The position numbers were made by a program, and so were the translations under genes. 57,040 nucleotides of DNA from Tateyamaria pelophila. Its GTDB lineage: Bacteria; Pseudomonadota; Alphaproteobacteria; Rhodobacterales; Rhodobacteraceae. The stretch is from NCBI RefSeq assembly GCF_019966495.1, contig NZ_JAIMIA010000025.1:1-57040 (forward strand), given 5' to 3'. Of the stretch, positions 14,398 to 31,590 are shown piece after piece; the first letter of the stretch is position 1, and every line of letters starts with the position of its first letter. The notes beneath the pieces are model-generated. The model had not been told where the DNA came from, searched no databases, and was given only the letters and a program-made list of their open reading frames with translations.

Positions 14398-15086
14398 GGC
14401 AATTGGTTCAACAGTGTTTCGCTGTCGCTGACCGCGCCGAACACGCCGCCCTGCATCGTTACCATCTTCAGGGCGGCCTCGTGGTTGCCCTTGTCGGTCG
14501 CCCCGCAGCAATCAGACAGCACAAGGCATTCAAAACCTCGGTCATTGCCTTCGCGCATGGTGGTCGAGACACAGACGTCTGTGGTGATGCCGGTCAGAAT
14601 GATATTTTCAATGCCACGCGTGTGCAGGATCATTTCCAGATCGGTCGCGCAAAAGCTGCCCTTGCCAGGCTTGTCGATGATCGGCTCGCCTACAATCGGG
14701 TAAAGTTCGGGGATGATGTCCCAGCCGGGTTCGCCCCGCACAAGGATTTTGCCGCAAGGGCCGGGATCGCCGATACCTGCGCCGATTTGTCGACTGCGCC
14801 AACGTTTGTTTGCGGGCAGGTCGGCAAGGTCGGGACGGTGGCCTTCGCGGGTGTGGATGATGTGATAGCCCTTCGCGCGCATGGCGGACAGAACGCGTTT
14901 GATCGGTTCAATCGGGGCCTGCGTCATTGACAGATCATAGCCCATCTTGTCGACATAGCCGCCTTCACCGCAAAAGTCGGTCTGCATGTCGATGATGATC
15001 AGCGTGGTGTTTTCAGGGCGCAGATCTCCGTTGTATGGCCACGCATATGGGTCTGCCGTGATGGTGTGAAGGCCCGCATCCTTCAT
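14394..15086 (-). CDS. biuH: Biuret amidohydrolase
   Basis: A 230-residue cysteine hydrolase predicted to convert biuret to allophanate and ammonia. From memory it is close along its whole length to Rhizobium leguminosarum BiuH ([41 protein letters not shown]). Asp33, Lys139, Cys172 and Gln212 fall at a constant offset of three from the known Asp36, Lys142, Cys175 and Gln215. The start at 15086 overlaps the formamidase stop (ATGA). Its product is the substrate of AtzF at 25795, which lies in a different operon. An alternative is a closely related ureido-compound hydrolase. Confidence 0.88.
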
Positions 15087-16108: not shown

Positions 16109-17032
16109 CTATTTGGTTATGCTCAACTCGCCCGGTGCGCCGGTCATGGCGCGCGAGGGGGAGGAGGTTGCGATCAGGACGCCCAGTGTCAGCACGTAGG
16201 GGGCGGCGAAAAACAGATAGTATCCTTCCGAAATCCCGACGGATTGCAGGGTCGGGCCAAGCGCACCTGCGCCGCCAAAGAGCAACGCCGCGCCAAAACA
16301 GGCTATGGGATTCCAGCGCGCGAAAATCACAAGGGCCACAGCCATCAGGCCCTGACCCGAAGAGATCCCTTCATTCCAGCTGCCGGGATAGAACAGAGAC
16401 AGATATGCGCCACCCACACCGGCAAAGGCGCCGCCTGCGGCTGTGGCCAGCGTGCGGATCAGGGCAGGGCGTAGGCCCATGGCGCGCGCCGCGTCGGTGC
16501 TGTCACCTACGACACGTACAATCAGTCCGACCTTGGTCGCGCGGAACATCCACCACATGCCAAAGGCCAGAGCTGCCCCTATCAGGAACAGCACGTTGAC
16601 CCGCAAGGCGGCTTTGACCTGCGGCACATCGGACCACCAGCCAAAGTTGATCGATGGCAGGTCCGGAGCCACAGGCTGGACATAGGGTTTGCCGAAATAG
16701 AACGCGAGACCCATACCGAGGATCATAATGGCGATGCCCACCGCGATGTCATTCACCCTTGGCAAGGAACAGATCAGCCCGTGGGTCAAACCGAAAAACG
16801 CGCCGCCAAGGGCCGCGGCCAAGACGCCAAGCCAAGGGGATCCTGTCAGGTAGGCAATGGCGTAGCCGGACATCGCGCCAAAGACTAACGTGCCTTCCAG
16901 TCCCAGGTTGATGCGACCGGACCGTTCGGTCAGCACTTCGCCGAGGCTCACGAACAGAAACGGGGTCGACACCCGGATCGCGCCCCCAAGAATGGCAAGC
17001 GGGATCACCCAAAGTCCCAGATCATTTTCCAT
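16109..17032 (-). CDS. ABC transporter permease, nucleoside/BMP type (YufQ-like)
   Basis: A 307-residue inner-membrane permease with about eight to nine hydrophobic segments and the family sequence GEVLTERSGRINLGLEGTLV near the N-terminus. It overlaps the upstream permease by 11 bases and is followed 9 bases later by amiF. It pairs with the 17022-18140 product. BMP-type systems import nucleosides or purine-like compounds, but here the linked genes point to biuret or related ureido compounds. Confidence 0.88.
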   Translation of the reverse strand: MENDLGLWVIPLAILGGAIRVSTPFLFVSLGEVLTERSGRINLGLEGTLVFGAMSGYAIAYLTGSPWLGVLAAALGGAFFGLTHGLICSLPRVNDIAVGIAIMILGMGLAFYFGKPYVQPVAPDLPSINFGWWSDVPQVKAALRVNVLFLIGAALAFGMWWMFRATKVGLIVRVVGDSTDAARAMGLRPALIRTLATAAGGAFAGVGGAYLSLFYPGSWNEGISSGQGLMAVALVIFARWNPIACFGAALLFGGAGALGPTLQSVGISEGYYLFFAAPYVLTLGVLIATSSPSRAMTGAPGELSITK

Positions 17033-18140
17033 CGCCGGTCCTCCAGCGTTCGGGGGTAAATATCTTGAACCGGCCGTAAAGCGTATCGCTCATCAGAATC
17101 GACACAAAGACAAAACCTTGCAGGACAAGGGTCGTGGCGTCGGGCAAATCCATCCGCCGTTGGGTCAACCCTGAGGCTGCCTCGAACCCCGCAAGCAGGA
17201 TGGCCACGGGGATGATCGCAAGCGGATTGTGGCGGGCAAGAAAGGCGATCAGGATACCGGTGTAGCCATAGCCCGACGCCAGACTGGCGTTGGCGGATCC
17301 GTGGACAGCGGCGACTTCGAAAAAACCCGCAAGCCCGGCAAGCGCGCCGCCGAGGGCGGTGAAGCCGATGATCAGAGGGCCGACAGCCAGACCCTGCACC
17401 TGTGCGGCGCGCATGTTTCCGCCTGCTATCCGGGCGGCAAAGCCCCATGTCGTCTTGTCGATCAAGACCCAGGCGAGGACGCAGCAGAGCACGCCAAATG
17501 CAAGGCCCCAATGCACCTCCCACCCTGGGATGTCGCCGACACGCAATGGCGTTGGCAAGGGGGCGGTGGAGGGTTTGTTCAGGCTTTCAGGGTCGCGCAA
17601 CGGACCCTCAACAAGGTGGTTCATCAGCGCGATAGCGATATACGCCATCAACAGGCTGGCAATGGTCTCGTTGACACCGCGGTAGTAACGTAAGGCCCCC
17701 ACAGCGCCGATCCACAGACCGCCGATGATCATGGCAAAAGCCGCCATCAGCGGCAAGGCAATCAGACCTATTGCACCGCTGAGTGCCACACCTGCGGCCC
17801 CGGCAGCCACGCCCCCCAGCACCATGGCGCCCTCTCCACCGATGATCACAAGGCCAAGGCGCGCGGGCAGGGCGACACAGAGCGCTGCAAAGAGCAAAGG
17901 CGCGGTGCGCGATAGTGTGTTTTGCCATGAAAACGCGGTGCCAAACCCAGCGCGATAGGTCAGCGCAAAAAAGTCGGCTGGGGATTTGCCCTGTACCAGC
18001 AGAAAGATGCTGAACACAGCAAAGCCGACGAGCAATGCGGCGACGGGAAGTACAACGGCTTCGGCGCGTCGCGCAACCTGGCCCAACACGCGGCTTGACG
18101 CGGGCAGGGCCAGAGGTGCCTGTGCTGCATGATCTGTCAT
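17022..18140 (-). CDS. ABC transporter permease, nucleoside/BMP type (YufP-like)
   Basis: A 372-residue permease. It has an N-terminal cytoplasmic segment of about 30 residues, then roughly ten hydrophobic segments, with the conserved GAMVLGGVAAGAAGVALSGA region and the RYYRGVNETIASLLMAYIAI segment typical of this permease class. It starts 21 bases after the binding-protein stop and forms the heterodimeric channel with the next gene. Confidence 0.88.
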   Translation of the reverse strand: MTDHAAQAPLALPASSRVLGQVARRAEAVVLPVAALLVGFAVFSIFLLVQGKSPADFFALTYRAGFGTAFSWQNTLSRTAPLLFAALCVALPARLGLVIIGGEGAMVLGGVAAGAAGVALSGAIGLIALPLMAAFAMIIGGLWIGAVGALRYYRGVNETIASLLMAYIAIALMNHLVEGPLRDPESLNKPSTAPLPTPLRVGDIPGWEVHWGLAFGVLCCVLAWVLIDKTTWGFAARIAGGNMRAAQVQGLAVGPLIIGFTALGGALAGLAGFFEVAAVHGSANASLASGYGYTGILIAFLARHNPLAIIPVAILLAGFEAASGLTQRRMDLPDATTLVLQGFVFVSILMSDTLYGRFKIFTPERWRTGDGK

Positions 18141-18161: not shown

Positions 18162-19277
18162 TCAGGAGGTTGAGCCGATCACGCCCTCGACCAGATAGTC
18201 CATGCTTTCGAGCGCAATATCGTTTTCGACCAAAGCCTCGCCCGCGCTCAGAAGTGCCGCCCCTGAGTTATCGTTCAGCGGTCCTTTGATGGCTGCAAAG
18301 CCACCTGCCATGATCTCGGCCTTCACGGATTCGAACTGTGCGCGTGATGCGTCGGATACGGCGGGACCCAATGGCGACATCTTGATGAATCCATCGGCCA
18401 GCCCGCCGCGCACAAAATTCCCGATTGTGCCGCCATCCAGCATAGTCTGAACCATGCCGGTGTAAACGCCCGCCCAGTTCCATTCTGCACCTGTCAGGTA
18501 TTTCTCCGGCGCGAGCGGTGACTGATCGGCGTGGTAGCCACAGACAAAACAATCACGTCCCGCGGCGGTTTCCATGACGACCTTGGGCCCATCCACGTGG
18601 CAAGTGATGACGTCACAGCCCGCATCCGCCAGTGCATTTGTTGCCTCGGCCTCTTTGACAGCAAGCGACCATTCGCCGGTAAAGATGACCTGGCAGGTAA
18701 TCTCCGGATCAACCTGCCGCGCGCCCAACAGGAAGGAATTGATGTTGAGCAAAACCTGCGGGATCGGCTTGGCTGCGACAAAGCCGATCTTTTTTGTCGT
18801 TGTGGCGTGCCCTGCGGTGATCCCGTTCAGGTATTGCCCCATGCCGATATAGCCGAAGTATGACCCGACATTGGTTGGCATCCCGTCCGTCCACAGACCG
18901 GCGGCGTGCTGGAACCGCACGTCGGGGTGCCTTGGAGCGACCTCGAGAACATGCGGGTTGAAGTAGCCAAAAGACGTGGGGAAGAGCAGCTTGGCGCTGT
19001 CGAAATTGATCATGGATTCCATCGAGTTCTGGACATCGGTGGTTTCAGCGACGTTTTCTTCTTCTACAACAACGACGCCATCCATGGCCTTTACTGCGGC
19101 TGCCCCTTCAGCATGTGCCTGATTGTAGCCGAAGTCATCCTTTGGTCCGACATATATGAAACCGACGGTCATTGGGGAATGCGCGGCTGCGGTCGCGATT
19201 TGAGGGAGCGCCGTCGCGCTGGCGAGTGCTGCCGTCCCTTTCAGAAATCCCCGGCGAGAAAATGGTGTAATCGGCAT
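18162..19277 (-). CDS. BMP-family ABC transporter substrate-binding protein, Tat-type signal
   Basis: A 371-residue periplasmic binding protein of the BMP/Med family. The start at 19277 follows AAGGAG. The signal reads SRRGFLKGTAALASATALPQ, twin-arginine type. The mature part opens MTVGFIYVGPKDDFGYNQAHAEGAA, the usual BMP strand-loop, and includes the family's aromatic ligand-pocket region (NWAGVYTGMV). It is the first gene of the operon through to the cupin at 11887. The TGC-N7-GCA dyad at 19406-19418 lies 129-141 bases upstream. Confidence 0.9.
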   Translation of the reverse strand: MPITPFSRRGFLKGTAALASATALPQIATAAAHSPMTVGFIYVGPKDDFGYNQAHAEGAAAVKAMDGVVVVEEENVAETTDVQNSMESMINFDSAKLLFPTSFGYFNPHVLEVAPRHPDVRFQHAAGLWTDGMPTNVGSYFGYIGMGQYLNGITAGHATTTKKIGFVAAKPIPQVLLNINSFLLGARQVDPEITCQVIFTGEWSLAVKEAEATNALADAGCDVITCHVDGPKVVMETAAGRDCFVCGYHADQSPLAPEKYLTGAEWNWAGVYTGMVQTMLDGGTIGNFVRGGLADGFIKMSPLGPAVSDASRAQFESVKAEIMAGGFAAIKGPLNDNSGAALLSAGEALVENDIALESMDYLVEGVIGSTS

Positions 19278-19405
19278 GAAGTGCTCCTTTGGCATTGGCT
19301 AAACGCGGCAGCGCTGTTTGGGGCATATCGCCCAACTGCATCTTTGAGGCTGAGCATGACCCCATCCAAGCGTTGTTGTCGTCTGCTAAGATTTCACCGG
19401 AATGG

Positions 19406-19418
19406 TGCAAAAAATGCA
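19406..19418. promoter_or_regulatory. Candidate LysR-type operator, copy 1
   Basis: TGCAAAAAATGCA, a 13-bp near-palindrome (TGC-N7-GCA) that also fits the T-N11-A LysR box. An identical copy lies at 20495-20507 and a 12/13 match at 30619-30631. It sits upstream of the BMP-biuH operon. Confidence 0.6.
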
Positions 19419-19568
19419 TCGTTCGTCGTTTGGCGCTGCACAAGTGCAAACGCGGGGCGATGACGCCAAGGATGCGCGTGGTGCAAGATGGTGATGCAGT
19501 CCGCGTTTCGCCGTTCTGCCGACAGGACCTAATGATGGATTACTGCGTGGGCCGTCTCGCGATCTAGA

Positions 19569-20471
19569 TCAGTGCGCCGCCCGCTGTTCTAACGCGGCAA
19601 CAAGTTGCTGGCCAAACTTGGAGGATGCAACGGGCAGGGTGCGGCCTTTCTTTTGACCCAACAGAAGACGCCCCACCGGAACGTCCCGTTCTGCCAGGGG
19701 CCGATGGGCGATCGTGTCCTGTTTTTCGGCGCTCAGACCAATGGGGATTTGAAATCCGACCGCATCTTCGCAGGTGACGTAGTGACGGATCAGGTCGAAG
19801 GACTCGGTTTCCACAATCGGCGCAAGGCTGCGACCTTTGCGCGCCGCGGCCAGTTCCAGCAAGTGGCGCACGCCGTATGCGGCGGAGGGCAAAACCAGTT
19901 TATGCGCCAAACAATCGTGCAGACGCAATTCGGGCTTGCGCGCCATGGCGTTTTCACGCTGGAAAACGGCGTGAACCGGCTGTGGCAGAGCATACAGAAC
20001 CTCGAAATCAACCAGATGAACGGGTTCGAAAACAAGGGCGAGATCACTGCTGAACGACGCCAGATCCTGCTCTGCCTGGGTGCGGTCGCGTACGTTGACC
20101 GTAAAGCTGACGCCGGGATGCGCGGCCCGATAGATCGCGATCTGGTCAGGCATGAAATAGGGCAGCAGGGCTTGGGAGCAGGCGATAGAGATATGGCCCC
20201 GCCGTTCCCCCGACAGATCGGCGACCTGGGATTGAACGCGTGCCAGATCGGTTCGTTGCAGGCCGATGTGCTGCATCAAAAGCTCGCCTGCCGGGTTCAG
20301 GCGCATGCCGCGCGGCAACCGTTCAAAGATCGGCCAGCCAAACTCCTGCTCGAAGTTCTGGATGCGCCGGTTCAGGGCGGACGCAGTGAGGTGTGTATCT
20401 TCCGCGGCTTTGCGAATTGATCCCGCGCGGACGACGGCTTCGATCAATTCGAACGTCCTGAGATACTTCAT
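19569..20471 (-). CDS. LysR-family transcriptional regulator
   Basis: A 300-residue LysR regulator. Its N-terminal winged helix-turn-helix spans residues 1-60 (FELIEAVVRAGSIRKAAEDT, then HLTASALNRRIQNFEQEFG), and an effector-binding domain begins near residue 92 (RGHISIACSQALLPYFM). The start at 20471 is set by the family N-terminus MKYLRTFELI. It is divergent from the dpp-atzF operon and sits between it and the BMP-biuH operon, with a TGC-N7-GCA dyad 23 bases before its own start. It is therefore the likely regulator of both operons. The inducer is unknown; biuret, allophanate or a nitrile are candidates. Confidence 0.92.
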   Translation of the reverse strand: MKYLRTFELIEAVVRAGSIRKAAEDTHLTASALNRRIQNFEQEFGWPIFERLPRGMRLNPAGELLMQHIGLQRTDLARVQSQVADLSGERRGHISIACSQALLPYFMPDQIAIYRAAHPGVSFTVNVRDRTQAEQDLASFSSDLALVFEPVHLVDFEVLYALPQPVHAVFQRENAMARKPELRLHDCLAHKLVLPSAAYGVRHLLELAAARKGRSLAPIVETESFDLIRHYVTCEDAVGFQIPIGLSAEKQDTIAHRPLAERDVPVGRLLLGQKKGRTLPVASSKFGQQLVAALEQRAAH

Positions 20472-20494
20472 GAGGCAATCCTCCCTGCAAGCGC

Positions 20495-20507
20495 TGCAAA
20501 AAATGCA
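20495..20507. promoter_or_regulatory. Candidate LysR-type operator, copy 2
   Basis: TGCAAAAAATGCA, identical to the copy at 19406. It lies in the divergent lysR/dpp spacer, 24-36 bases before lysR and 108-120 bases before the dppA-like start. That placement fits autorepression of lysR and activation of the dpp-atzF operon. Confidence 0.65.
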
Positions 20508-20614
20508 CCGCGTATGTGATTTTATAGCATTAGAATTTGACGCTTTTCCAGCGCACCGTTGTCGCAACCATCGAATCCCGAAACATTTTAGCCAACATCG
20601 AGAAGGCAGAATTC

Positions 20615-22220
20615 ATGACCGATCAGACCACCCGTCGTAATTTCTTGAAAATGGGGGCCGCCAGCGCCTCTGTCTTGCCGTTCCTGCGCGATGCCCGCTG
20701 CCGCCCAAGGGTCGGACACGTTGGTCGTGGTGTCGGGACAGACAATCAATTCGCTCGATCTGCACCGGTCCGGCACCAGCCGCGCATCCTATCAGGTCGG
20801 GGTCAATTGCTATGACCGGCTGGTATCCTTTGGCACCAAGGAAGCCCCAGGTGGCGGTTACTCGTTTGATTACGGCGTCGTCGAGCCGGAACTCGCCGAA
20901 AGCTGGACAGAATCTGACGACGGTCTGACGCTGACATTCAAGCTGAAGCCTGACGCGAAATTCTGGGACGGGCGCAAGGTCACGGCTGCTGATGTGAAAT
21001 GGTCGTTTGATCGCGCCGTTTCTGTTGGTGGTTTCCCAAGTGTACAGATGAAGGCCGGTGGGTTTGTCCGCCCCGATCAGTTTGAAGCCGTCGATGACGA
21101 GACATTCGTGATCAAGCTGGATTTCCCCTCAAAGCTCTCGATTCCGGATCTGGCAGTGCCTGTTCCCTATATCATCAACTCGGTCGAGGCGCTTGCCAAT
21201 GCCACAGAGGAAGATCCATGGGCGCTGGAGTACTTGCACATGACTCCCGCCGGGTCGGGCGCATTCAAGATCGCTCGATGGACCCCCGGCGAACAGATGG
21301 TTTACGAGCGCAATGATGACTGGGTCGGTGGCCCGTTGCCCGCGCTCAAGCGTGTGGTCGTGCGCGAAGTGCCCAGCCCGGCCACGCGGCGCGCGCTGGT
21401 TGAACGTGGAGACGTACAGGTTGCTTTTGACATTCCAGACAAGGATGCCGCCGAGCTTGCAGAGACGCTGGACGTGTTTTCGACCCCGGTCGTGAACTGC
21501 ATGTTCTGCCTGTGCCCAAACTTTGCCTTCGAGCCATTCCAAGACCCCGACGTGCGCAAGGCGCTTGCCTACGCGATCCCCTATGCGGACATCTTTCAGG
21601 CCGCAGCGTATGGTCGAGGCGTGCCACTTTGGGGCGGTGAGGAAGAGATCAACGACATCGCGTGGCCGCGCAAGTCACAATACTATACCGACCTGGAAAA
21701 GGCCAAGGAACACATGGCCAAGTCAGGCTTTGCGGAAGGCTTCGACGTGCCGCTTTCAATCAGCCTCGATCTTGTGTCCTGGATGGAGCCAACAGCGATT
21801 CTGATACAGGAAGCGCTTGGCCAGATCGGGATCACGGTCGAGATTGAAAAAATCCCGGGTGCGAATTGGCGCACGGCATCTTTGGTTGAAAAGCGTTTGC
21901 CGCTGCACCTGGAAACCTTCGGGGGCTGGCTCGACACGCCGGACTATTATTTCTTCTGGGCATATCAGGATGGCCACCTGTTCAACTCCTCGAACTACCG
22001 GAATGAAGAGATCGAAGAACTGACGAATGCGACATTGCACATGCCGATGGATGATCCTGAATATGCGCCCAAGATCAAACGCATGTTCGAGATCGTGCTG
22101 GATGAATTGCCACGCATCCCGCTCTACCAGCCCGCCCTGAATGTCGCGGCCAATGGTGTCGACGGGTATGAGTTCTGGTTCCATCGTCAGTTGGACATCC
22201 GTCCTTTGAAGACTGTCTGA
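20615..22220 (+). pseudogene. Dipeptide/oligopeptide-type ABC substrate-binding protein, frameshifted at the signal peptide
   Basis: The mature protein (SBP_bac_5 family, about 500 residues: DTLVVVSGQTINSLDLHRSG..., AESWTESDDGLTLTFKLKPD) is open in frame from 20691 to 22220. Its expected Tat signal (TRRNFLKMGAASASVLPFL) lies in another frame, starting at the ATG at 20615 with AGAAGG upstream. One extra base in CTGCGCGATG near 20686-20690 would account for the shift; without it the text would read ...PFLAMPAAAQGSDT. Either the gene is broken for export or the base is a sequencing error. It is the first gene of the dpp-atzF operon. Confidence 0.8.
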
Positions 22221-22223
22221 CCT

Positions 22224-23258
22224 ATGCTTGCCACCTCTCCGCGGCTTCGTGCGACCGGGTTGCGCATAGTCCAGGCCATCCCGGTTGTCATCGGCGTCGT
22301 GGTGATCAGCTTTTTGCTGACACGCGCGCTGCCCGGAGACCCGGCGGTCTACTTTGCAGGGGTGGCTGCAGATGCTGACTCCATTGAACAAACCCGTGTT
22401 GCCATGGGTTTGGACAAACCAATGGCACAGCAATTTCTCATCTACGTGGGTGATTTGTTGCAAGGAGATCTCGGGCAATCGCTTTCAAGCGGTCGATCCG
22501 TTGCTGAGGATTTGGCCAAACGGCTGCCTGCATCTCTTGAATTGACACTGACGGCGTTGTTGCTTGCCATAGCAATTGCCGTCCCGCTTGGTGTTCTGGC
22601 TGCGACCCGACCGGGGACCTGGGTAGACCATCTATGTCGTGTCGTGGTGACAGCGGGTGTTTCTTTGCCCACGTTTTTCACTGGAATCCTGCTGATCTAC
22701 GTTTTCTATTACCTGTTGGGCATCGCGCCTTCACCCTTGGGACGTCTGGATTTCATCTATCTCGACCCGGATCATGTGACGGGCTTTTACCTGATTGACG
22801 CGGCTTTGATGGGAGATTGGGAAACCTGGCGCGGGGCGGCCAAACAACTGATTTTGCCCGCCGGTACTTTGGCCCTGTTCACCTTGGCCCCGATTGCGCG
22901 GATGACGCGAGCTGCGATGCTGAGCGCCCTGTCATCGGATTTCATCCGCACCGCACGTGCCGCTGGACTGTCCAATCGAACAGTCCTTTTCCGCTATGCA
23001 TTTCGCAACGCCTTGCTGCCGGTGGTGACCACGCTGGGGATGGTGTTTTCCTTTGCCCTCGGGGCCAATGTGCTGGTGGAAAAGGTCTTTGCCTGGCCCG
23101 GGATCGGATCCTATGCGGTCGAGGCCCTTGTCGTGTCGGATTACGCAGCGGTGCAAGGTTTTGTGTTGGCGATGGCGCTCTTGTTCGTGGCGCTTAATCT
23201 GGTGATTGACCTGCTCTATACGGCGATTGACCCCCGCATCGGGTTTTCATCCAAATGA
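22224..23258 (+). CDS. ABC transporter permease, DppB type
   Basis: A 344-residue permease with six membrane helices. It has the DppB-like N-terminal segment (VVIGVVVISFLLTRALPGDP) and EAA-type loop (SDFIRTARAAGLSNRTVLFR, then YAFRNALLP). It starts 3 bases after the binding-protein stop and overlaps dppC by 4 bases. A long periplasmic stretch near residues 175-195 is normal for DppB-like subunits. Confidence 0.9.
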   Translation: MLATSPRLRATGLRIVQAIPVVIGVVVISFLLTRALPGDPAVYFAGVAADADSIEQTRVAMGLDKPMAQQFLIYVGDLLQGDLGQSLSSGRSVAEDLAKRLPASLELTLTALLLAIAIAVPLGVLAATRPGTWVDHLCRVVVTAGVSLPTFFTGILLIYVFYYLLGIAPSPLGRLDFIYLDPDHVTGFYLIDAALMGDWETWRGAAKQLILPAGTLALFTLAPIARMTRAAMLSALSSDFIRTARAAGLSNRTVLFRYAFRNALLPVVTTLGMVFSFALGANVLVEKVFAWPGIGSYAVEALVVSDYAAVQGFVLAMALLFVALNLVIDLLYTAIDPRIGFSSK

Positions 23259-24133
23259 CGGAAGTATCGCAACAACAGGCCAGCAAGACGCGCGGGAATT
23301 ACGATCACATTCTATATGTTCTGCGGGCAAACCCGGTGACGTTGATTGCCTTTGGCATGTTTGCCTTGTTGATCTTTTCGGCAGTGTTTGGGCCTATGCT
23401 GGTGCCTTACGATCCGCTGGCGACCAATGCATCCAACGCCCTGCAGCCGCCGTCGGCAGCTCATTGGTTTGGCACCGACAATGTGGGCCGCGATGTGTTC
23501 AGTCGGGTAATCGTGGCCACGCGGCTCGATCTGTCGATCTCGGTTGCGGCGGTTGCCTTGTCCTTTATCGTCGGATCAATTCTGGGCTGCGTCGCGGGCT
23601 ATTGGGGCGGCTGGCTCGATATCATCCTGAATCGTTTTCTCGATACGATCATGGCGTTTCCGTTGTTTGTCCTGGCAATGGGCATTGTCGCGGCGCTGGG
23701 CAATACAATCGAAAACATCATCTACGCGACTGCGATCATCAACATGCCGTTTTACGCTCGACTGGTGCGCGCCGAGGTCAATATCCGCCGCGATGCAGGC
23801 TTTGCGCGTGCCGCCAAGCTGGCGGGCAACTCGGATGTTCGTGTACTGGCGCTCCATATCTTTCCCAACGCCCTGCCGCCAATGATGGTGCAAGTGTCCT
23901 TGAACCTCGGATGGGCAATCCTGAATGCTGCTGGCTTGTCGTTTATCGGTCTGGGGGTAAGCCCGCCAACAGCGGAATGGGGCATCATGGTTGCGGAGGG
24001 GGCGAATTTCATCGTCTCGGGCGAATGGTGGCTCGCCGTCTTTCCCGGCCTGTGGCTGATGATTGCGGTCTTTACCTTCAACCTTCTGGGGGACGGCCTG
24101 CGCGACATCGTCGATCCGCGCAAGCGGACATGA
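23255..24133 (+). CDS. ABC transporter permease, DppC type
   Basis: A 292-residue permease. It has an N-terminal helix (NPVTLIAFGMFALLIFSAVF), the DppC motif HWFGTDNVGRDVFSR near residue 70, four to five more helices and the EAA loop around RDAGFARAAKLAGN. ATGA overlaps on both sides couple it to dppB and the ATPase gene. Confidence 0.9.
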   Translation: MTEVSQQQASKTRGNYDHILYVLRANPVTLIAFGMFALLIFSAVFGPMLVPYDPLATNASNALQPPSAAHWFGTDNVGRDVFSRVIVATRLDLSISVAAVALSFIVGSILGCVAGYWGGWLDIILNRFLDTIMAFPLFVLAMGIVAALGNTIENIIYATAIINMPFYARLVRAEVNIRRDAGFARAAKLAGNSDVRVLALHIFPNALPPMMVQVSLNLGWAILNAAGLSFIGLGVSPPTAEWGIMVAEGANFIVSGEWWLAVFPGLWLMIAVFTFNLLGDGLRDIVDPRKRT

Positions 24134-25770
24134 GCGCGATGTTGTCTGTCAGGGACCTTGCCGTCTCGTTTAACACCCGGCGCGGCGTCGTGGATGCAGT
24201 GCGCGGGATCAGTTTTGACGTGTCCAAGGGGGAGATCCTGGGCGTTGTTGGTGAAAGCGGATCCGGCAAATCGGTCACCTCCTATGCTTTGATGCGTATC
24301 CTCGACGCCGGGGGAGTGATCAAGGCAGGTGAGGCGACGTATTCCGGCGTCGATTTACGCCGTGCGGCTGAACGTGACATGCGCGACATCCGTGGGCGCG
24401 AGATATCCATGATCTTCCAGAACCCGCGTGCCGCCTTGAATCCGATCCGCAAAGTCGGCCACCAGATTGAAGACGTGCTGCGCCATCATGCGCGCGCCAC
24501 CCGGTTTGATGCGCGCGAAAAGGCGATTGCTGCGCTCGAGGCGGTCAAGATCAACGATGCCTCGGCCCGCTATAACGCCTATCCGTTCGAACTGTCAGGT
24601 GGCATGTGTCAACGCATTGTTTGTGCGATTGCGTTGGCCTGTGATCCGCGCCTTCTGATTGCCGACGAGCCCACCACGGGTTTGGATATCACGACCCAAA
24701 AGGCAGTCATGGACCTTGTGCGCGACCTGATCCGCGAGCGCGACATGAGCAGCATCCTGATCACGCATGACCTTGGCCTCGCCGCGCAATACTGCGACCG
24801 GATCCTGGTGATGAAGGACGGCGTGATCGTCGAACAAGGAGACCCGGCGCAGATTTTCAGTGACCCGCAGCACCCCTATAGCCGCAAGCTTGTGGATGCG
24901 ACGCCGCGTGCTGGCACTGACGTGCGCAGCCTGTTGCCGCCGCAAGAGCGGGGTACAATGGTGACCCCAAAAATCAGCGATCAACCGTTGCTGGAGGTTC
25001 GCAACCTGACCAAGACCTATATGGGCAAATCCGGTCCGGTCCATGCGGTCAAAGGCATATCTTTCAAGATCAACGAGGGCCAGTGCGTGGGACTTGTGGG
25101 CGAAAGCGGGTGTGGTAAATCCACGACCTCGGAAATTCTGGTGCGGCTCATGGACGCCACCAGCGGCGAGATCATTTTTGATGGCGAAGACATCGCGACC
25201 GCGCCGGCCCGTGGCTTTGCCGGAGATGCGAGGCGCGCAGACATTCAAATGGTGTTTCAGGACGCCACCGACAGCCTGAACCCCCGCCACTCCGCGCGCC
25301 AGACCATTGCGGAACCATTGCGCCGATTGGGCCGTATGCGCGGTGCCGAACTGGCCACGCGGATCGAAGAACTGGCGACGTTGGTCGGTTTGCCGCTGTC
25401 CTTGCTGGACCGATTTCCACATCAGCTGTCAGGCGGCCAGAAGGCACGGGTTGGCATTGCGCGGGCAGTCGCGCTTGAGCCAAGATTCCTCATCCTTGAT
25501 GAGCCCACGGCAGCGCTTGATGTGTCCATTCAGGCGGTTGTTTTGAACCTGCTCGTGGATCTGCGGATCAAACTGGGTCTCAGCTATCTGTTCGTCAGTC
25601 ATGACCTACACGTCGTGCGGTTGCTCTGCGATCATGTGATCGTCATGAAAGATGGTGAAATCGTGGAGCAAGGTGCCGCACAAAACGTCATGTCCAACCC
25701 AAGAAGCGATTATACCAAAATGTTGCTGGCGGCAGCGCCCGCACCGCCACAACGACGCAAGACAAACTAA
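24130..25770 (+). CDS. ABC transporter ATP-binding protein, fused DppD-DppF type
   Basis: A 546-residue protein carrying both ATPase domains of a peptide-type transporter in one chain. Domain 1 has GESGSGKSV, signature LSGGMCQR and Walker B LLIADEPTTGLD. Domain 2 (from about residue 285) has GESGCGKST, LSGGQKAR and [12 protein letters not shown]. Domain 1 has Met-Cys where most family members have Met-Arg/Gln in LSGGM(R/Q)QR, a mild deviation. The start at 24130 is fixed by the ATGA overlap with dppC; the frame is open further upstream, but only as an overlap with dppC. Confidence 0.9.
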   Translation: MSAMLSVRDLAVSFNTRRGVVDAVRGISFDVSKGEILGVVGESGSGKSVTSYALMRILDAGGVIKAGEATYSGVDLRRAAERDMRDIRGREISMIFQNPRAALNPIRKVGHQIEDVLRHHARATRFDAREKAIAALEAVKINDASARYNAYPFELSGGMCQRIVCAIALACDPRLLIADEPTTGLDITTQKAVMDLVRDLIRERDMSSILITHDLGLAAQYCDRILVMKDGVIVEQGDPAQIFSDPQHPYSRKLVDATPRAGTDVRSLLPPQERGTMVTPKISDQPLLEVRNLTKTYMGKSGPVHAVKGISFKINEGQCVGLVGESGCGKSTTSEILVRLMDATSGEIIFDGEDIATAPARGFAGDARRADIQMVFQDATDSLNPRHSARQTIAEPLRRLGRMRGAELATRIEELATLVGLPLSLLDRFPHQLSGGQKARVGIARAVALEPRFLILDEPTAALDVSIQAVVLNLLVDLRIKLGLSYLFVSHDLHVVRLLCDHVIVMKDGEIVEQGAAQNVMSNPRSDYTKMLLAAAPAPPQRRKTN

Positions 25771-25794
25771 CTGCACCTACGCGGAGAAGACCCC

Positions 25795-27600
25795 ATGCTG
25801 ACCAACCTGCCATTCACGCTTGCTGCACTTCGTGGCGCTTATGCCGCTGGCACAAAGCCTGCTGCCGTCATTGATGAGATCTTTGCGCGCCTGGATGCGG
25901 CGAATGACCCCGGGATTTTCATCCACTTGTGCGACCGCGAGACCCTGCGCGCCGAGGCCGAGGGCCTTGGAGCTTATGACCCCGATATGCCGCTGTGGGG
26001 CATTCCCTATGCGGTAAAGGACAACATCGACGTCGCAAGCATTGAAACTACGGCGGGCTGTCCCGCATATGCTTACATGCCTGATACCGACGCCTTTGTG
26101 GTTGCCAAGCTGCGGGCGGCGGGCGCGCTGATGATTGGAAAGACCAATCTTGATCAATTTGCGACGGGTCTTGTCGGCGTGCGCACGCCTTATGGTGCGC
26201 CATTGAATTCAGTGGATCCTTTAATTGTGCCAGGCGGCTCGTCGGGCGGCTCTGGCGTGATTGTCGGGCACGGAATCGTCACGTTCTCTTTGGGTACGGA
26301 TACGGCCGGCTCGGGCCGAGTGCCCGCAGCACTCAACAACATTGTTGGGCTCAAGCCCACATTGGGGGCTTTGTCGGCCAGCGGAGTTGTCCCGGCCTGT
26401 CGAACGCTGGACACCATCTCGATTTTTGCATTGACCGTTGATGACGCTTATGCGGCCTTTGCCGTGGCGCGGGGGTTTGATCCGGCAGATGCATATTCGA
26501 AACCTTTGACGCATCAAGAACTGACAGCGCCGCGAATGCCTTTGCGGGTAGGGGTGCCGAATGCCGATACCATCGAGTTCTTCGGTGATGATGTTCAAAA
26601 AGACGCGTTTGATCGGGACGTCGCGTTGCTGGCGGCAACAGGTGCCACCATCGAGACGATCGACTTTGAGCCTCTCTATGCCATTGCCCGCATGCTTTAT
26701 GAAGGTGCATGGGTGGCAGAGCGCTACACAGTCATCGACGCGTTGTTGGCCAGCAATCCAGACGCGATCCATCCGGTGACGCGTAAGATCATCACCCATG
26801 CCGAAAGCATGTCGGCTGCCGATGCGTTCAATGGGATCTACCGTCTCGCTGATCTGAAACGTGCGGCAGAGCCAATGTTGGAACATCTGGACATGCTTTG
26901 TGTCCCGACGATCCCGACGTTCTATTCAGTTGCGGATCTGGACGCAGATCCCATCACGCCCAATTCCAACAACGGGACCTACACCAACTTTGTGAACCTC
27001 TTGGATATGTGTGGCATTGCTGTGCCGACGGCACCGCGCAGCGATGGCAGACCGGGCAGCGTCACGCTGCTGGCCGCGGCGGGCAACGACGCCGCGGTGG
27101 CCGCCGTTGCGCGTGGCTTTGAAGAGGATTGCCCTCGCAACATGGGGGCAACCGCCCATCGGGTACCCAGTCCAACGCCGCTCCCGAACGCGCCATCCGA
27201 CCAGATGGAGCTTGCGGTCTGTGGCGCTCATATGACGAGCCTACCGCTGAATTGGCAACTGACCGATTTGGGGGCGACGTTTGTGCGCAAGGCGCAGAGT
27301 GCGGCCAACTACAAATTCTATGCCCTCGCAGGTGGTCCACCGGAACGGCCTGGAATGGTGCGATCTGATGGCGCCGATACAGGCGCAATTGCGCTCGAAA
27401 TATGGTCGCTGCCTACGGCCGCCTTTGGGTCATTTATGGCCAGGATCCCTGCGCCGTTGGGGATCGGCACGATCGAATTGTCGGATGGGGCTTCTGTGAA
27501 AGGGTTCATTTGCGAAGCGAGTGGCACCAAAGGGGCCACAGACATCACCGCACTCGGCGATTGGCGGACATACCTTGCGCAAACGTCAGTCCCGGCATGA
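25795..27600 (+). CDS. atzF: Allophanate hydrolase
   Basis: A 601-residue amidase-signature enzyme with a C-terminal extension, predicted to hydrolyse allophanate to ammonia and CO2. The amidase domain carries Lys75 (GIPYAVKDNIDV), cis-Ser149 (PGGSSGGSG) and nucleophile Ser173 (GTDTAGSGRVPA), with the same spacing (74 and 24) as the known AtzF triad Lys91, Ser165, Ser189. The C-terminal domain (from about residue 470, MELAVCGAHMTSLPLNWQLT) is the AtzF-like domain. There is no biotin-dependent urea carboxylase beside it, so the allophanate probably comes from BiuH. It lies 24 bases after the transporter ATPase. Confidence 0.93.
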   Translation: MLTNLPFTLAALRGAYAAGTKPAAVIDEIFARLDAANDPGIFIHLCDRETLRAEAEGLGAYDPDMPLWGIPYAVKDNIDVASIETTAGCPAYAYMPDTDAFVVAKLRAAGALMIGKTNLDQFATGLVGVRTPYGAPLNSVDPLIVPGGSSGGSGVIVGHGIVTFSLGTDTAGSGRVPAALNNIVGLKPTLGALSASGVVPACRTLDTISIFALTVDDAYAAFAVARGFDPADAYSKPLTHQELTAPRMPLRVGVPNADTIEFFGDDVQKDAFDRDVALLAATGATIETIDFEPLYAIARMLYEGAWVAERYTVIDALLASNPDAIHPVTRKIITHAESMSAADAFNGIYRLADLKRAAEPMLEHLDMLCVPTIPTFYSVADLDADPITPNSNNGTYTNFVNLLDMCGIAVPTAPRSDGRPGSVTLLAAAGNDAAVAAVARGFEEDCPRNMGATAHRVPSPTPLPNAPSDQMELAVCGAHMTSLPLNWQLTDLGATFVRKAQSAANYKFYALAGGPPERPGMVRSDGADTGAIALEIWSLPTAAFGSFMARIPAPLGIGTIELSDGASVKGFICEASGTKGATDITALGDWRTYLAQTSVPA

Positions 27601-28070
27601 CGTCGGATGCCGAAAAAAAGCTGATTGATCTTGGTCTGGAGCTGCCGCCTGACTGGACGCCTCGGGGTCAGTTCCTGCCGTTTCGCAAGGACGGGGCGGT
27701 TGTCTATCTATCCGGCCAGATCTGCGAGTGGGGCGGTGAGGTCACGCATAGAGGGCCTGTCGAGGACACCCCTGAAGGAATTGAGGACGCTCGCGCGGCT
27801 GCACAGATTTGCGCGCTGAACCTGATCTATCGGCTGCGCGAAGCTTGCGACGGTGATCTGGATCGCGTGGATGTCATTCTCAGGCTCGGTGGTTTCGTGA
27901 ATTGTCAGTCCGGATTTCCAAACAGTCCCGCAGTCATCAATGGCGCGACCGAGGTTTTCATTGCTCTGTTCGGGGATCGGGGCTGGCACGCGCGTACGGC
28001 CGTTGGCGTCTCTGGCCTGCCGGGAAATGCTTCCGTCGAAGTTGACGCGACAGTACGGCTCAGGGTCTAG
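27597..28070 (+). CDS. RidA (YjgF/YER057c/UK114) family protein
   Basis: A 157-residue RidA-family protein starting at 27597 through an ATGA overlap with atzF. Family features are YLSGQICEWGGEV in the middle and WHARTAVGVSGLPGNASVEV near the C-terminus. The arginine in HART aligns with the catalytic arginine of RidA, so imine or enamine deaminase activity is possible. Coupling to AtzF suggests work on an unstable ureido or carbamoyl intermediate, but this is inference. It converges with the amidase gene, overlapping it by 4 bases. Confidence 0.85.
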   Translation: MTSDAEKKLIDLGLELPPDWTPRGQFLPFRKDGAVVYLSGQICEWGGEVTHRGPVEDTPEGIEDARAAAQICALNLIYRLREACDGDLDRVDVILRLGGFVNCQSGFPNSPAVINGATEVFIALFGDRGWHARTAVGVSGLPGNASVEVDATVRLRV

Positions 28071-29317
28071 CGGCGTGGTAATTGGGGCAGGGGGCGCGAC
28101 GGGCCCAGGGCTTCCAACTTAGCGGCAATCGATAACAACTGTGCATCCTGTCCCGGCCGCGCTGCAAGCATGACAGAGCGCGGTCTTTTCAGCCTATCCA
28201 GTCCCCATGGCAGACAAATCAGCGGGCCGCCAAAGACGGTCCAGGGCGTCAACCAGTCTTGATATCCGGTGGTGCCGTCAATAAGCGGCGGCCCGTCCGG
28301 TACAGGTAGAGTCAACACCACATCAACACCAGCAAGGCCTGCCCAAAATGCTCGCTTCGCCTCGGCCAGGTACTCTGCCGCACGCGCGGCCGCGTCAGAT
28401 GAAATCGCAGTTCCGGACCGCAAGCCTGCCGCGAATTTCGGCTTCAGCAGATCAGCCCGCGCATCAGACAGTATCGCCCCATGTGCCATGGCAGCCTCGT
28501 AGGTCATGACTGTCCTGTGCGCTGTGACGATCTGCTCGACATCTGCCTGCAAAGTGGTTTGTTCAGTCCCCAAGCCGAGGGTCGCGAGTACTGTCGCCGC
28601 ATCATTAAACGCAGCCAATGTATCGGCGTAAGGGACGACGCTGGTGTTCCAAAGACCACAGATCGCCGTTACGGACGACATATCATGCGTTTGAACCGTT
28701 GACGTGGTCATCGCAGCAAAAGCAGACCGCGCCAGTTCGACTGTTCCTGCGATAATGCCCACACTGTCAAAACTGGGAGACAGCGGTGTAACGCCAATAG
28801 TGGACAATAAGGCGTAAGATGGCTTGAAGCCAACAACCCCACAGTAGGCCGCAGGGCGACACAGCGACCCTGCGGTCTGCGTTCCGAGGCCGATATCGAC
28901 CAGACCTGCGGCGACAGCGGCGCCAGAACCGCTGCTTGACCCGCCGGGCGTGCGGTTCAGATCAAATGGATTGCGGCAGGCCGTGGGATCGGTGAATGCG
29001 AATTCCGTCGTCGTCGTCTTGGCCACGATCCGCGCACCGGCTGCGCGCAAGGATGCAACGACGCTGGCATCTTTGGTGGCCGGGGGGGCATCTTTGCACG
29101 CATCACTGCCATTACGCGTCGCAACGCCGACAACGTCGATGATATCCTTCACGCCGACTGTGACGCCAGCCAACGGGCCGTGGACGCTGTGGGTTTTGCC
29201 CTCATCTGTGTCGCACAGGGCGACCAGAGCGTGGATACGATGCTCCCACAGGTCAGCCTGTTGGCGGAACCGCTCAAGGTCCGTCTCGTTTCCTTGTCTT
29301 GCGCGAATTATGCTCAT
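28067..29317 (-). CDS. Amidase, amidase-signature family
   Basis: A 416-residue amidase with the Ser-cisSer-Lys triad Lys57 (GVTVGVKDII), Ser127 (TPGGSSSGSG) and Ser151 (GTQTAGSLCRPA). The start at 29317 shares one base with the stop of the nitrile hydratase alpha gene (TGATG); a GTG one codon earlier is also possible. It is shorter than GatA-type enzymes and lacks the AtzF C-terminal domain. Downstream of a nitrile-hydratase-like enzyme it would convert the amide product to acid and ammonia, the common nitrile hydratase/amidase arrangement. Confidence 0.88.
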   Translation of the reverse strand: MSIIRARQGNETDLERFRQQADLWEHRIHALVALCDTDEGKTHSVHGPLAGVTVGVKDIIDVVGVATRNGSDACKDAPPATKDASVVASLRAAGARIVAKTTTTEFAFTDPTACRNPFDLNRTPGGSSSGSGAAVAAGLVDIGLGTQTAGSLCRPAAYCGVVGFKPSYALLSTIGVTPLSPSFDSVGIIAGTVELARSAFAAMTTSTVQTHDMSSVTAICGLWNTSVVPYADTLAAFNDAATVLATLGLGTEQTTLQADVEQIVTAHRTVMTYEAAMAHGAILSDARADLLKPKFAAGLRSGTAISSDAAARAAEYLAEAKRAFWAGLAGVDVVLTLPVPDGPPLIDGTTGYQDWLTPWTVFGGPLICLPWGLDRLKRPRSVMLAARPGQDAQLLSIAAKLEALGPSRPLPQLPRR

Positions 29318-29937
29318 CACACATCCCGCGCGACGCCAATGAGGTGATCCCGCGAGATGCGTGCCTCCAGATCGTCAATCGTGCACTGATCCACGCCGTC
29401 AGGCGGTTGAGGCAACACCAGATAGCGCATGTCGGCATTGCTATCATGCACAATGAGTTGAGTGCTTTCGGGCAAATGCAGCCCGAACTCCGCCAATACA
29501 CGGCGTGGTTCGCGTACGGATCGGGCCCTATAGGCCTTGGAGATATACCACGACGGAGGTTGCCCGAGAATGGACCTGGGGTAACAGGAACAGAGCGTGC
29601 AGGTGATCAGATTGTCCACGTTTTCTGTATTCTCGACGACGATGATGCGGGCTTCGGTTACCGGAATATCAAGCTCTTGCACCGCCGCGCGCCCGTCAGA
29701 CAAAAGGCGATCCCTATAAGCGGGTTCGGTCCACGCTTTGGCGATAATCCTCGCACCAAGGTGAACCCCCGGGCTTTCCAGTTTTGCAATTGATGCGGTG
29801 ACTTCATGCGCCGTTAGCAGGCCCTTGGCGATCAATACCTCTTGCAGCGCGTCAACGATGATCTGCGCTTCGATGTTTCCCGCGTCGTCCTCGATGGCGA
29901 TGGCTTCATGTTCTCCGTGGCCATGATCATGGGGCAT
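29317..29937 (-). CDS. Nitrile hydratase alpha / thiocyanate hydrolase gamma subunit
   Basis: A 206-residue metal-bearing subunit of the nitrile hydratase family. The metal site is Cys113-Thr-Leu-Cys116-Ser-Cys118 (ITCTLCSCYP), the cobalt-type sequence; iron types have CSLCSC. The next stretch, SILGQPPSWYISKAYRARSV and VLAEFGLHLP, looks closer to thiocyanate hydrolase gamma and toyocamycin nitrile hydratase than to classical two-subunit enzymes. There is a His-rich N-terminus (MPHDHGHGEHE). It overlaps the beta-C gene by 11 bases. It could hydrate nitriles, cyanamides or thiocyanate; the amidase next door favours nitriles. Confidence 0.88.
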   Translation of the reverse strand: MPHDHGHGEHEAIAIEDDAGNIEAQIIVDALQEVLIAKGLLTAHEVTASIAKLESPGVHLGARIIAKAWTEPAYRDRLLSDGRAAVQELDIPVTEARIIVVENTENVDNLITCTLCSCYPRSILGQPPSWYISKAYRARSVREPRRVLAEFGLHLPESTQLIVHDSNADMRYLVLPQPPDGVDQCTIDDLEARISRDHLIGVARDV

Positions 29938-30229
29938 GGGTGGTCTCCTCTACGCTTGTCAGCCAGTGGTCATAGATTTCGATGACCAGTGTGTCGTGTT
30001 CCGGGATGTCCGCGTCCCGCCACAGTCGCGCTTGTGAAAACGACACCCTGTAGAGATCAACCGCACGCCTTGAGGTTATGCCGATGGCCAGATCCTCAGA
30101 GTTCAGATACGTCCCGCAATACTGGACGATGTGCCCAATTTGCTGTCTGATGTAGTGTGGGATGCGGACATGCCCGGCCTTGCCAAGCGCCAGAACCCGA
30201 ACGCGATCTCCGGGCGAAAACCGTGTCAC
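29927..30229 (-). CDS. Nitrile hydratase beta C-terminal domain / thiocyanate hydrolase alpha-type subunit
   Basis: A 100-residue subunit equal to the C-terminal SH3-like domain of nitrile hydratase beta: FSPGDRVRVLALGKAGHVRI and then PHYIRQQIGHIV at the start, LYRVSFSQARLW in the middle and IEIYDHWL at the end. The terminal YxHWL pattern is typical of the three-subunit enzymes. The GTG start at 30229 is set by a GTGA overlap with the upstream gene; a TTG at 30253 would be an unlikely longer start. It is a stand-alone subunit rather than part of a fused beta chain. Confidence 0.82.
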   Translation of the reverse strand: MTRFSPGDRVRVLALGKAGHVRIPHYIRQQIGHIVQYCGTYLNSEDLAIGITSRRAVDLYRVSFSQARLWRDADIPEHDTLVIEIYDHWLTSVEETTHAP

Positions 30230-30567
30230 GTCTTGGTATCCACATCGTTCCAACGCGCCTTTCCGGCTTCAATCGCGGCGTCAAGTTCCGCGCGGGAAAG
30301 AATGCCCTTCTCGATCAAAATATCGGTCATGGCCTCCATGCGGCGCCTGTAGAAAGAAAGAGTGTCGTACTTTTCCACACCAAAACTCTCGAAACCGCGC
30401 CGCACTTCATCAAGGGATACGATCCGGCGTGTGCCGTCGCCAAGAAGACCGCGAATGGCTTCGACTTGCTTTTCCCAATGCAACCAAGGGAGTTCAATCA
30501 TCGGAATGTCGCCAGCCTGATCTCCGCCAATGTCATGGTAGCCTTTAGGTCCTTTCGTGTCTTGCAT
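30226..30567 (-). CDS. Nitrile hydratase beta N-terminal domain / thiocyanate hydrolase beta-type subunit
   Basis: A 113-residue subunit matching the N-terminal helical part of nitrile hydratase beta. It has the HDIGG motif near residue 11 (GYHDIGGDQAGDIP), PWLHWEKQVEAIRGLL, and LSFYRRRMEAMTDILIEKGI near the C-terminus. The ribosome site AGGAGG lies before the ATG at 30567. It is the first gene of the operon beta-N, beta-C, alpha, amidase. An alternative is a P14K/NhlE-type accessory protein, which is homologous, but the HDIGG motif favours a true structural subunit. Confidence 0.8.
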   Translation of the reverse strand: MQDTKGPKGYHDIGGDQAGDIPMIELPWLHWEKQVEAIRGLLGDGTRRIVSLDEVRRGFESFGVEKYDTLSFYRRRMEAMTDILIEKGILSRAELDAAIEAGKARWNDVDTKT

Positions 30568-30618
30568 AAGCGCCCTCCTGACCCAAAAACCATTGCAGCA
30601 GCCAATGTCGTTTACCAT

Positions 30619-30631
30619 TGCTTTTTTTGCA
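30619..30631. promoter_or_regulatory. Candidate LysR-type operator, copy 3
   Basis: On the minus strand it reads TGCAAAAAAAGCA, 12 of 13 bases identical to copies 1 and 2 and itself fitting TGC-N7-GCA. It lies 52-64 bases upstream of the nitrile hydratase operon start. Confidence 0.55.
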
Positions 30632-30835
30632 GCAAACCTATGCGAATAAAGGTGCAAGATCGGTGATGTTTGGCACGTTCCTATGTGTCGTGACCGGTCG
30701 ATGGGATATGCGTTTGAAGACAGAAACGGGAGTTAACTTTGCGTCACACTATGGGGTTTCTAGCAACCAGAATGGTCTCCTGACCTTGCAGGGCGAAATC
30801 GGACCTTCGCTTTTGGCTTGTCTTAGGCTCAGCAC

Positions 30836-31213
30836 TCATAACCAGAATATGACGGTTGCTGCGAGAGCGATAGCGGAGAGGAAGACGGTTGCGGTTCTGT
30901 CTTGGCGGCTTGCGACCCTGCGCCGGTCCTTGATCTTGCCGAACATGCTCTCAATCCTGTTGCGTCTTTTGTAGCGGCGCGTGTCATTGTTGACTGTCTT
31001 ATTTTGAGACTTGCGTCCCGATATGCGGGGCTTCGTTCCGTTGTTTCTAAGGGTATTGCGGAACCAGTCGGCATTATGCTCTCGACCAGCGAGGAGCCAC
31101 CGGGCCTCTGGCAACCCATTCATCAAACCTGCTGCTCCGGTGTAATCGCTGACTTGCCCAGCGGTGATAAAAAGGCGGAATGGGCGCCCAATGGTATCGG
31201 TATTGCCGACCCT
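30836..31213 (-). pseudogene. IS5-family transposase C-terminal remnant
   Basis: The minus frame starts abruptly at about 31213 (VGNTDTIGRPFRLFITAGQV), passes LPEARWLLAGREHNADWFRN and ends with IESMFGKIKD...FLSAIALAATVIFWL. The family has LLADRGYDADWFR, so the catalytic aspartate is Gly here. The glutamate in RNRIESMF remains. The N-terminal half with the first catalytic Asp is absent. It is an inactive copy, on the same strand as the fragment at 3107-3229. Confidence 0.82.
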
Positions 31214-31590
31214 AGATCTCTTGACATAAGACAGACTCTGCGTAGGTCAGACGGCGTCTACCAGTAAACCTCGAAGCCAGAATTGATCGCAGTGATTTTT
31301 TTTGAGCTTGTATCCACATGATCAGCGATGGAAGTGGATTGGATGTAATCTAGAAACAATAAGTTAGGTGATGGCTTGCACGTAAGTAGCACAGGGGGTT
31401 TCTGAGACTTGTTGAAAGCTCATGCTCGCAACCGGCTGCGGTCGGAGTAAGCCGCCCTGTTTGCCAAACCTACGCAATCACCGCCGATTGCAGGTCTTCA
31501 GTCTCGGGGGGCTAGACTGCCCCAATTCGTGTGCAGTATGTGTGCAACATGGTCCCGAAAACCGTAACTGCGACCATAGGAGAGCGAAGA
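31214..31590. other. Intergenic stretch upstream of dusA
   Basis: No gene or RNA recognised. It probably holds the missing side of the decayed IS5 copy and the dusA promoter. No clear hairpin or repeat was seen. Confidence 0.4.

Follow-up and report, generated by a model that had tools for sequence, protein, structure and literature searches.

Does the recurrence of one short sequence upstream of three operons mark them as members of a single regulon? The question is raised by a 57,040-nucleotide stretch of Tateyamaria pelophila DNA (contig NZ_JAIMIA010000025.1, positions 1–57,040; hereafter the window), in which the 13-bp sequence TGCAAAAAATGCA or a near copy of it precedes an operon for a BMP-family transporter and biuret hydrolase, a dpp-atzF operon and a nitrile hydratase operon, and in which a gene for a LysR-type regulator lies between the first two copies. 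Comparison with related genomes indicates that the sequence is very probably part of the operator of this AtzR-like LysR protein (19569–20471, minus strand), which would activate the dpp-atzF, BMP-formamidase-biuH-trtA and split-beta nitrile hydratase-amidase operons.

A shared motif upstream of three operons

Pattern search of the window places exact copies of TGCAAAAAATGCA at 19406–19418 and 20495–20507, and a copy with one mismatch, TGCAAAAAAAGCA, on the minus strand at 30619–30631, as the original prediction had it. Each of the three precedes an operon (the minus-strand BMP operon, the operon read from the lysR/dpp spacer, and the minus-strand nitrile hydratase operon with its first ATG at 30567), in keeping with the proposed promoter positions, and the form TGC-N7-GCA is of the T-N11-A type that had been proposed for it. 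Allowing one mismatch, 0.12 copies would be expected in the window by chance, and none of 100 shuffles gave three. Both exact matches in the 5.65 Mb genome fall inside the window; matches with up to one mismatch occur at 15 places, 12 of them outside the window, and a reversed control pattern gave three. Because of these 12 other matches, a one-mismatch copy would in itself say little for a third site, which is supported instead by comparative data in which the copy at 30619 appears as one half, box B, of a larger operator (see below).

Architecture and conservation of the proposed operator

The operator seen in relatives has two parts, box A (TGC-N7-GCA) and, 22 bp nearer to the target gene, box B (usually TGA...TAGCA), so that TGCAAAAAATGCA is the upstream half, box A, of a composite of approximately 35 bp. 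In the lysR/dpp-atzF spacer, box A (20495–20507, plus strand; TGCA-N5-TGCA) lies 24 bp upstream of the lysR start codon and resembles a recognition binding site (RBS), and box B (TGATTTTATAGCA; 20517–20529, plus strand), 22 bp downstream toward the dpp-atzF operon, resembles an activation binding site (ABS). Upstream of the BMP-biuH-trtA operon, box A (19406–19418, minus strand) is likewise followed at 22 bp by a box B, TGAAATCTTAGCA (19384–19396, minus strand).

Conservation was assessed at 33 loci from named genomes that carry the LysR gene and at 30 loci, including that of the window, drawn from 248 surveyed family genomes. Gene order flanking lysR is widely conserved across these loci, and Yoonia sediminilitoris DSM 29955 (L054) is an example of a culturable relative with the complete cluster. 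The spacer adjoining lysR repeatedly contains TGCA-N5-TGCA and, 22 bp on, TGa-N6-TAGCA, and the BMP promoters of relatives carry the same kind of box pair oriented toward BMP. Among 832 trinucleotide dyads (64 arms at 13 spacings), TGC-N7-GCA ranks first: 54 of 59 distinct lysR homologues have it among the 70 bp before the gene, and 27 of 28 BMP genes have it no farther than 200 bp upstream. The runner-up is the nested dyad GCA-N5-TGC (39 and 19, respectively); the remainder reach at most 17 and 16. A stricter composite pattern, consisting of the right arm of box A, nine bases and TG-N8-GCA, is present in 47 of 59 lysR stretches, 19 of 28 BMP stretches and all 10 nitrile hydratase stretches. 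The examination of orthologous promoters that the original prediction had called for thus found the motif strongly conserved, and a conserved TGC-N7-GCA with a second element 22 bp downstream has, by sequence, the form of a LysR-type operator.

LysR tetramers commonly combine a high-affinity RBS with ABS sites that they bind less tightly, and activation is believed to move them from one ABS site to another, according to the relevant passages of a published account (PMC4730206). Being 22 bp apart and directed at the target gene, boxes A and B fit such an RBS and ABS. A LysR tetramer would accordingly be anchored on box A as its recognition half and touch box B two helical turns downstream, and a ureide-type inducer might alter its grip on box B and so activate dpp-atzF on the plus strand and the BMP-formamidase-biuH-trtA and nitrile hydratase-amidase operons on the minus strand. 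Box B would then lie approximately over the expected –35 element, with the –10 element perhaps 20 bp past it, as a partly conserved block suggests, and the proximity of box A to the lysR start codon would allow autoregulation.

Genome-wide specificity and linkage to the LysR gene

Specificity was evaluated with a model (R1) of 46 columns built from 52 sites, from whose training the window and the nitrile hydratase promoters were left out. In this genome, where 150 of 1701 first-look candidates were scored, R1 gave two strong matches, at 20490–20534 (plus strand, 41.6 bits) and 19379–19421 (minus strand, 38.5 bits). The other six listed matches reach at most 16.3 bits; two of them come from the palindromic box A being read in reverse, and the top score without any relation to the boxes is 13.1 bits (expectation value, E, 0.58); the proposed whole-genome search therefore returned no further full sites among the candidates scored. 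Each of 16 further LysR-carrying genomes also has an R1 match, the matches including lysR, BMP and nitrile hydratase promoters.

The survey of 248 family genomes, in which the LysR protein was called at E ≤ 1e-40 and sites were scanned with stricter filters and 25 candidates scored per genome, found the LysR protein in 39 genomes and a site at E ≤ 0.01 in 46. The two are closely associated: a site is present in 38 of the 39 LysR-positive genomes versus 8 of the 209 LysR-negative ones. For LysR-positive genomes outside the training set the figure is 15 of 16, and at E ≤ 1e-4 it is 11 of 16 versus 1 of 209. The sole LysR-positive genome missed by the model (G083) has a site detected by a position weight matrix (PWM; score 33.5), and the best site among LysR-negative genomes, in G209, adjoins the gene for another, remote LysR protein (24% identity). 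In one genome that lacks the LysR protein studied here, a site reading TGCAAAAAATGCACCG (L179:5375–5420) adjoins genes for an unrelated LysR (24%) and for an NMT1-type transporter.

As for the target genes, a BMP protein at E ≤ 1e-100 is encoded in 27 genomes, two of which (G013 and G242) have no LysR gene and a BMP protein only 49–52% identical; all 25 genomes with a BMP protein of at least 70% identity carry the LysR gene. BiuH at E ≤ 1e-60 is found in 29 genomes, one of them (G242) LysR-negative, and the 46 site-bearing genomes of the 248-genome scan include neither G013 nor G242. In G017 and G216 the BMP gene is on a different contig from lysR and still has the upstream site, a separate SBP5 (dpp-type) operon in G149 has a site of its own, and weaker sites are found at the separated BMP operons of G112 and G219 (PWM 20.6 and 18.9). 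Site and LysR gene are thus linked across genomes, and the site travels with the operon where that operon is apart from lysR.

The nitrile hydratase promoter

The third copy, TGCAAAAAAAGCA (30619–30631, minus strand), lies 52 bp upstream of the nitrile hydratase ATG at 30567 and takes the place of box B. A degenerate box A, ACCTTTATTCGCA, is found 22 bp upstream of it (30641–30653, minus strand), with the right arm GCA retained and the left arm lost; in the 10 orthologues, too, the left arm departs from TGC and reads TTC or CCC. The composite is present in the orthologous promoters, often with box B as a complete TGC-N7-GCA, and GCA-N9-TG-N8-GCA is retained in all ten. It is the top PWM match of the locus, on the right strand, at all ten orthologous loci (L079–L088: 9.7, 29.1, 26.6, 16.8, 29.4, 15.7, 28.5, 32.6, 34.6 and 31.2), and R1, which had not been trained on these promoters, recovers nine of them on the right strand at E ≤ 0.04, L079 being excepted. 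Among remote nitrile hydratase homologues (41–48% identity), none of the 18 loci gave an R1 match at E ≤ 0.1.

Treatment of the three copies as equivalent elements was rejected, as alignment of the orthologous nitrile hydratase promoters sets the third in the box B register. The idea of one LysR regulon holds with respect to conservation, genome specificity and linkage of site and LysR gene, and requires revision in two respects: the operator is not a 13-bp dyad but the longer composite, and the third copy is not an equal element but its box B.

Two further features of this region were observed. A similar stretch, GGTGCAAGAT(C)GGTGATG, occurs on the plus strand at 19480–19497 and 30651–30668, upstream of the minus-strand BMP and nitrile hydratase operons, and at 30830–31400, at least ~170 bp upstream of the nitrile hydratase operator, there are remnants that by eye, from a characteristic motif, resemble an IS5-type transposase.

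Relationship to the AtzR system

The closest characterized relative considered is the LysR protein of pADP-1 from Pseudomonas sp. ADP (atzDGEHF-atzRSTUVW), with 120 of 289 residues identical to the one here (E 9e-73). The sequence record describes it as LysR family only, and it is taken as AtzR because its gene sits between atzD and the BMP transporter. In both systems lysR is divergent from an operon that ends in atzF, and a BMP-family transporter follows. The dyad TGCC-N5-GGCA is found in pADP-1 between atzR and atzD (L192, approximately 5902–5914) and a second time on the downstream side of atzR, ahead of the transporter genes (L192:6955–6967), so that the two systems share the dyad geometry at matching places and differ in the inner base pair (TGCC-N5-GGCA versus TGCA-N5-TGCA). 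The recognition helices also differ (VAASAVNRR in pADP-1, LTASALNRR here), although this is a single case of a difference accompanying that of the inner dyad base. The operator published for AtzR is reportedly TGCC-N5-GGCA, and because that sequence is not the one found here, the regulator is classed as AtzR-type rather than AtzR.

In the passages available, AtzR is described as responsive to cyanuric acid and as regulating both operons (PMC6834077). Unlike those of pADP-1, the enzymes here are of the triuret/biuret type, with a nitrile hydratase in the proposed regulon. A family search for AtzD, the cyanuric acid hydrolase, gave no match in this genome, and that search matched in no genome, controls included. 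The remoter plasmid homologues from Azospirillum (L194, 41%) and Novosphingobium (L196, 37%) have no matching site.

Alternative explanations

Several observations weigh against the proposed operator and its reach. The dyad is missing from 5 of the 59 lysR stretches (L023, L025, L028, L035 and L064), with L028 retaining it at one mismatch and L064 (Granulosicoccus) having a site ~200 bp upstream of an SBP5 gene and none in the stretch upstream of lysR; the stricter composite pattern fails in 12 of 59 lysR and 9 of 28 BMP stretches. At L025, where the LysR protein is 61% identical, the dyad is instead GGTTC-N7-GAACC, and the helix-turn-helix motif offers no clear reason for it; the recognition helix, examined for covariation with the box, is highly conserved and leaves the altered dyad unexplained. 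The invariant bases of R1 stem from the regular expression used in collecting its sites, and pADP-1 has no recognizable box B of the type described here (PWM –9.4 and –15.8). With regard to nitrile hydratase, TGC-N7-GCA is present in 7 of the 10 promoters, compared with 6 for the next dyad, and absent from 3, and at L079 the model yields the opposite reading only (6.8 bits). Support for the third site is at its weakest in the present genome, where R1 gives it 7.9 bits (9.1 for the opposite reading), the genome-wide R1 scan did not report it, and its PWM score is 12.7 (2.5 for the opposite reading), a level reached by approximately 0.2 sites per genome by chance (2 matches in 113 Mb of simulated sequence).

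That low score, close to the chance expectation for the whole genome, together with the lost left arm of box A, could mean that the regulon comprises the dpp and BMP promoters only and that A-tracts make the nitrile hydratase site resemble the others by chance. The orthologues are, in addition, closely related, so that their agreement partly reflects shared ancestry. This explanation is nevertheless considered unlikely, given that the composite is the best, correctly oriented match at every orthologous locus, that a model untrained on these promoters finds nearly all of them and no locus of a remote homologue, and that the spaced GCA, TG and GCA elements are retained throughout. Rather less probable still is that the LysR protein governs only itself, with the operons under something else in the shared spacer: the 24 bp between box A and the lysR start codon are as expected for autoregulation, but a target-directed composite also precedes operons that are not next to lysR (G017, G149 and G216), as well as nitrile hydratase some 10 kb off. 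An equally slight chance is given to the boxes belonging to a general nitrogen regulator or a sigma-54 promoter. Copy 2 reads CGGTGCATTTTTTGCA on the minus strand, GG-N10-GC fits it on the lysR strand, and TTTTTTGCA resembles a –12 element of the sigma-54 consensus. The –24 GG is not conserved, however: the position preceding TGCA is variable among the 52 aligned sites, and copy 1 has A there. The –24/–12 reading was rejected on that ground. General nitrogen regulators are moreover known to be nearly universal, yet 201 of the 209 LysR-negative family genomes have no site at E ≤ 0.01. A composite operator of the AtzR-type LysR protein serving all three operons is therefore preferred.

Genes of the proposed regulon

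The regulator itself (19569–20471, minus strand; 42% identity to AtzR over 289 aa) matches PF00126 and PF03466 above the gathering cut-off. The first minus-strand operon begins with the BMP-family periplasmic binding protein (18162–19277; start at 19277 chosen by eye from a ribosome-binding site and Tat signal), which is homologous to its BMP counterpart on pADP-1 (36%) and to the atrazine periplasmic binding protein (PDB 6pi5), followed by two ABC permeases (17022–18140 and 16109–17032), a formamidase-family C–N hydrolase (15083–16099; NF009803 above cut-off), biuret hydrolase BiuH (14394–15230, open reading frame (ORF) start overlong; NF050097, 419.5 bits against a cut-off of 370; PDB 6azo, 5bk6 and 6xjm), an ABC ATPase with two ABC_tran stretches (12880–14511) and a TrtA homologue, a putative triuret hydrolase (12212–12880), all on the minus strand. 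The last falls under the BiuH cut-off and has its best match in the Herbaspirillum TrtA structures 6xix/6xj4 (1.7e-83 to 6xix versus 1.8e-57 to the best BiuH-type chain, 6azo), so that by sequence its product is nearer to that TrtA than to BiuH; 6XIX is given as TrtA in the relevant passage of PMC7948467. The operon predicted as one for biuret thus does contain biuH and extends to a triuret-hydrolase homologue.

On the plus strand, the Dpp-type ABC transporter operon (20615–25770) encodes a family-5 binding protein (ORF 20691–22220), permease and ATPase domains, and is followed by allophanate hydrolase AtzF (25795–27600; TIGR02713 above cut-off). A Tat-type signal peptide recognized by eye at ATG 20615 is out of frame with ORF 20691–22220, which looks like a frameshift or sequencing error in the binding protein gene.

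The nitrile hydratase operon, on the minus strand, encodes the N-terminal (30226–30567) and C-terminal (29927–30253) halves of the beta subunit as separate genes, the alpha subunit (29317–29937), whose closest solved structures are cobalt enzymes and whose CTLCSC sequence is presumably the cobalt-type motif, and finally an amidase-signature hydrolase (28067–29320), which is under the cut-off of every NCBIfam family among the best 25 of 26.

Related operators and other nitrogen sources

The same operator adjoins the genes for LysR homologues of ~40% identity in G003, G060, G061, G089 and G103, in all five cases pointing at a divergent nitrite reductase-type gene (identified by Pfam in two, the other three being 77–81% identical to the first); these arrangements are seen in L180, L181, L182, L183 and L184. 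In G061 a second site is flanked by a molybdopterin oxidoreductase gene on one side and ABC transporter genes on the other; G060, G089 and G103 have homologues of this oxidoreductase close to the nitrite reductase gene. In G150 a 61% LysR homologue faces a urea carboxylase-type gene across an altered dyad, and GGTTC-N7-GAACC was observed between such a homologue and such a gene at L189:9812–9857. The cyanobacterial LysR activator of nitrite assimilation, NtcB, is said to recognize TGCA-N5-TGCA; among openly licensed papers, none was found that treats NtcB, LysR and TGCA together.

These cases suggest, as a lead rather than a result, that one operator type may serve several nitrogen sources. 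A broader proposal, tentative and more doubtful than not, is that one LysR subfamily has kept a nearly fixed TGC-N7-GCA operator while being turned to different nitrogen sources (triuret/biuret together with nitrile hydratase in this bacterium, a urea carboxylase-type gene with an altered dyad in G150, nitrite reductase-type genes in five genomes and cyanuric acid in pADP-1), and that the split-beta nitrile hydratase here is not a general nitrile hydratase but a ureide enzyme hydrating an N-cyano compound such as cyanourea, which on hydration gives biuret.

Biuret and triuret as nitrogen sources

BiuH, TrtA and AtzF here are homologous to those of Herbaspirillum sp. BH-1 and the related triuret/biuret pathway. 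The passages available describe trtA as clustering with biuH (PMC7948467) and, in ammonia oxidizers, a BMP-type transporter adjoining atzF, biuH and trtA (PMC12625717). In contrast to the LysR protein here, the word LysR is absent from both papers; the synteny legend of the latter gives a GntR-type regulator, and its passages that name nitrile hydratase give no tie to biuH. No LysR regulon for biuret or triuret, or including nitrile hydratase, was found among the matches listed in a search of openly licensed literature, mostly titles and the starts of abstracts. An AtzR-type LysR system is of a known kind; what is new is the set of targets, chiefly nitrile hydratase, and the composite operator.

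The LysR protein very likely turns on biuret/triuret uptake and breakdown together with nitrile hydratase in marine Roseobacter-type bacteria, which would provide a regulator, an operator and a gene list for the way in which marine Rhodobacteraceae obtain nitrogen from biuret and triuret. A nitrile hydratase would thereby be linked to the biuret/triuret pathway, and the AtzR system, known from herbicide breakdown, would have close relatives beside triuret/biuret genes.

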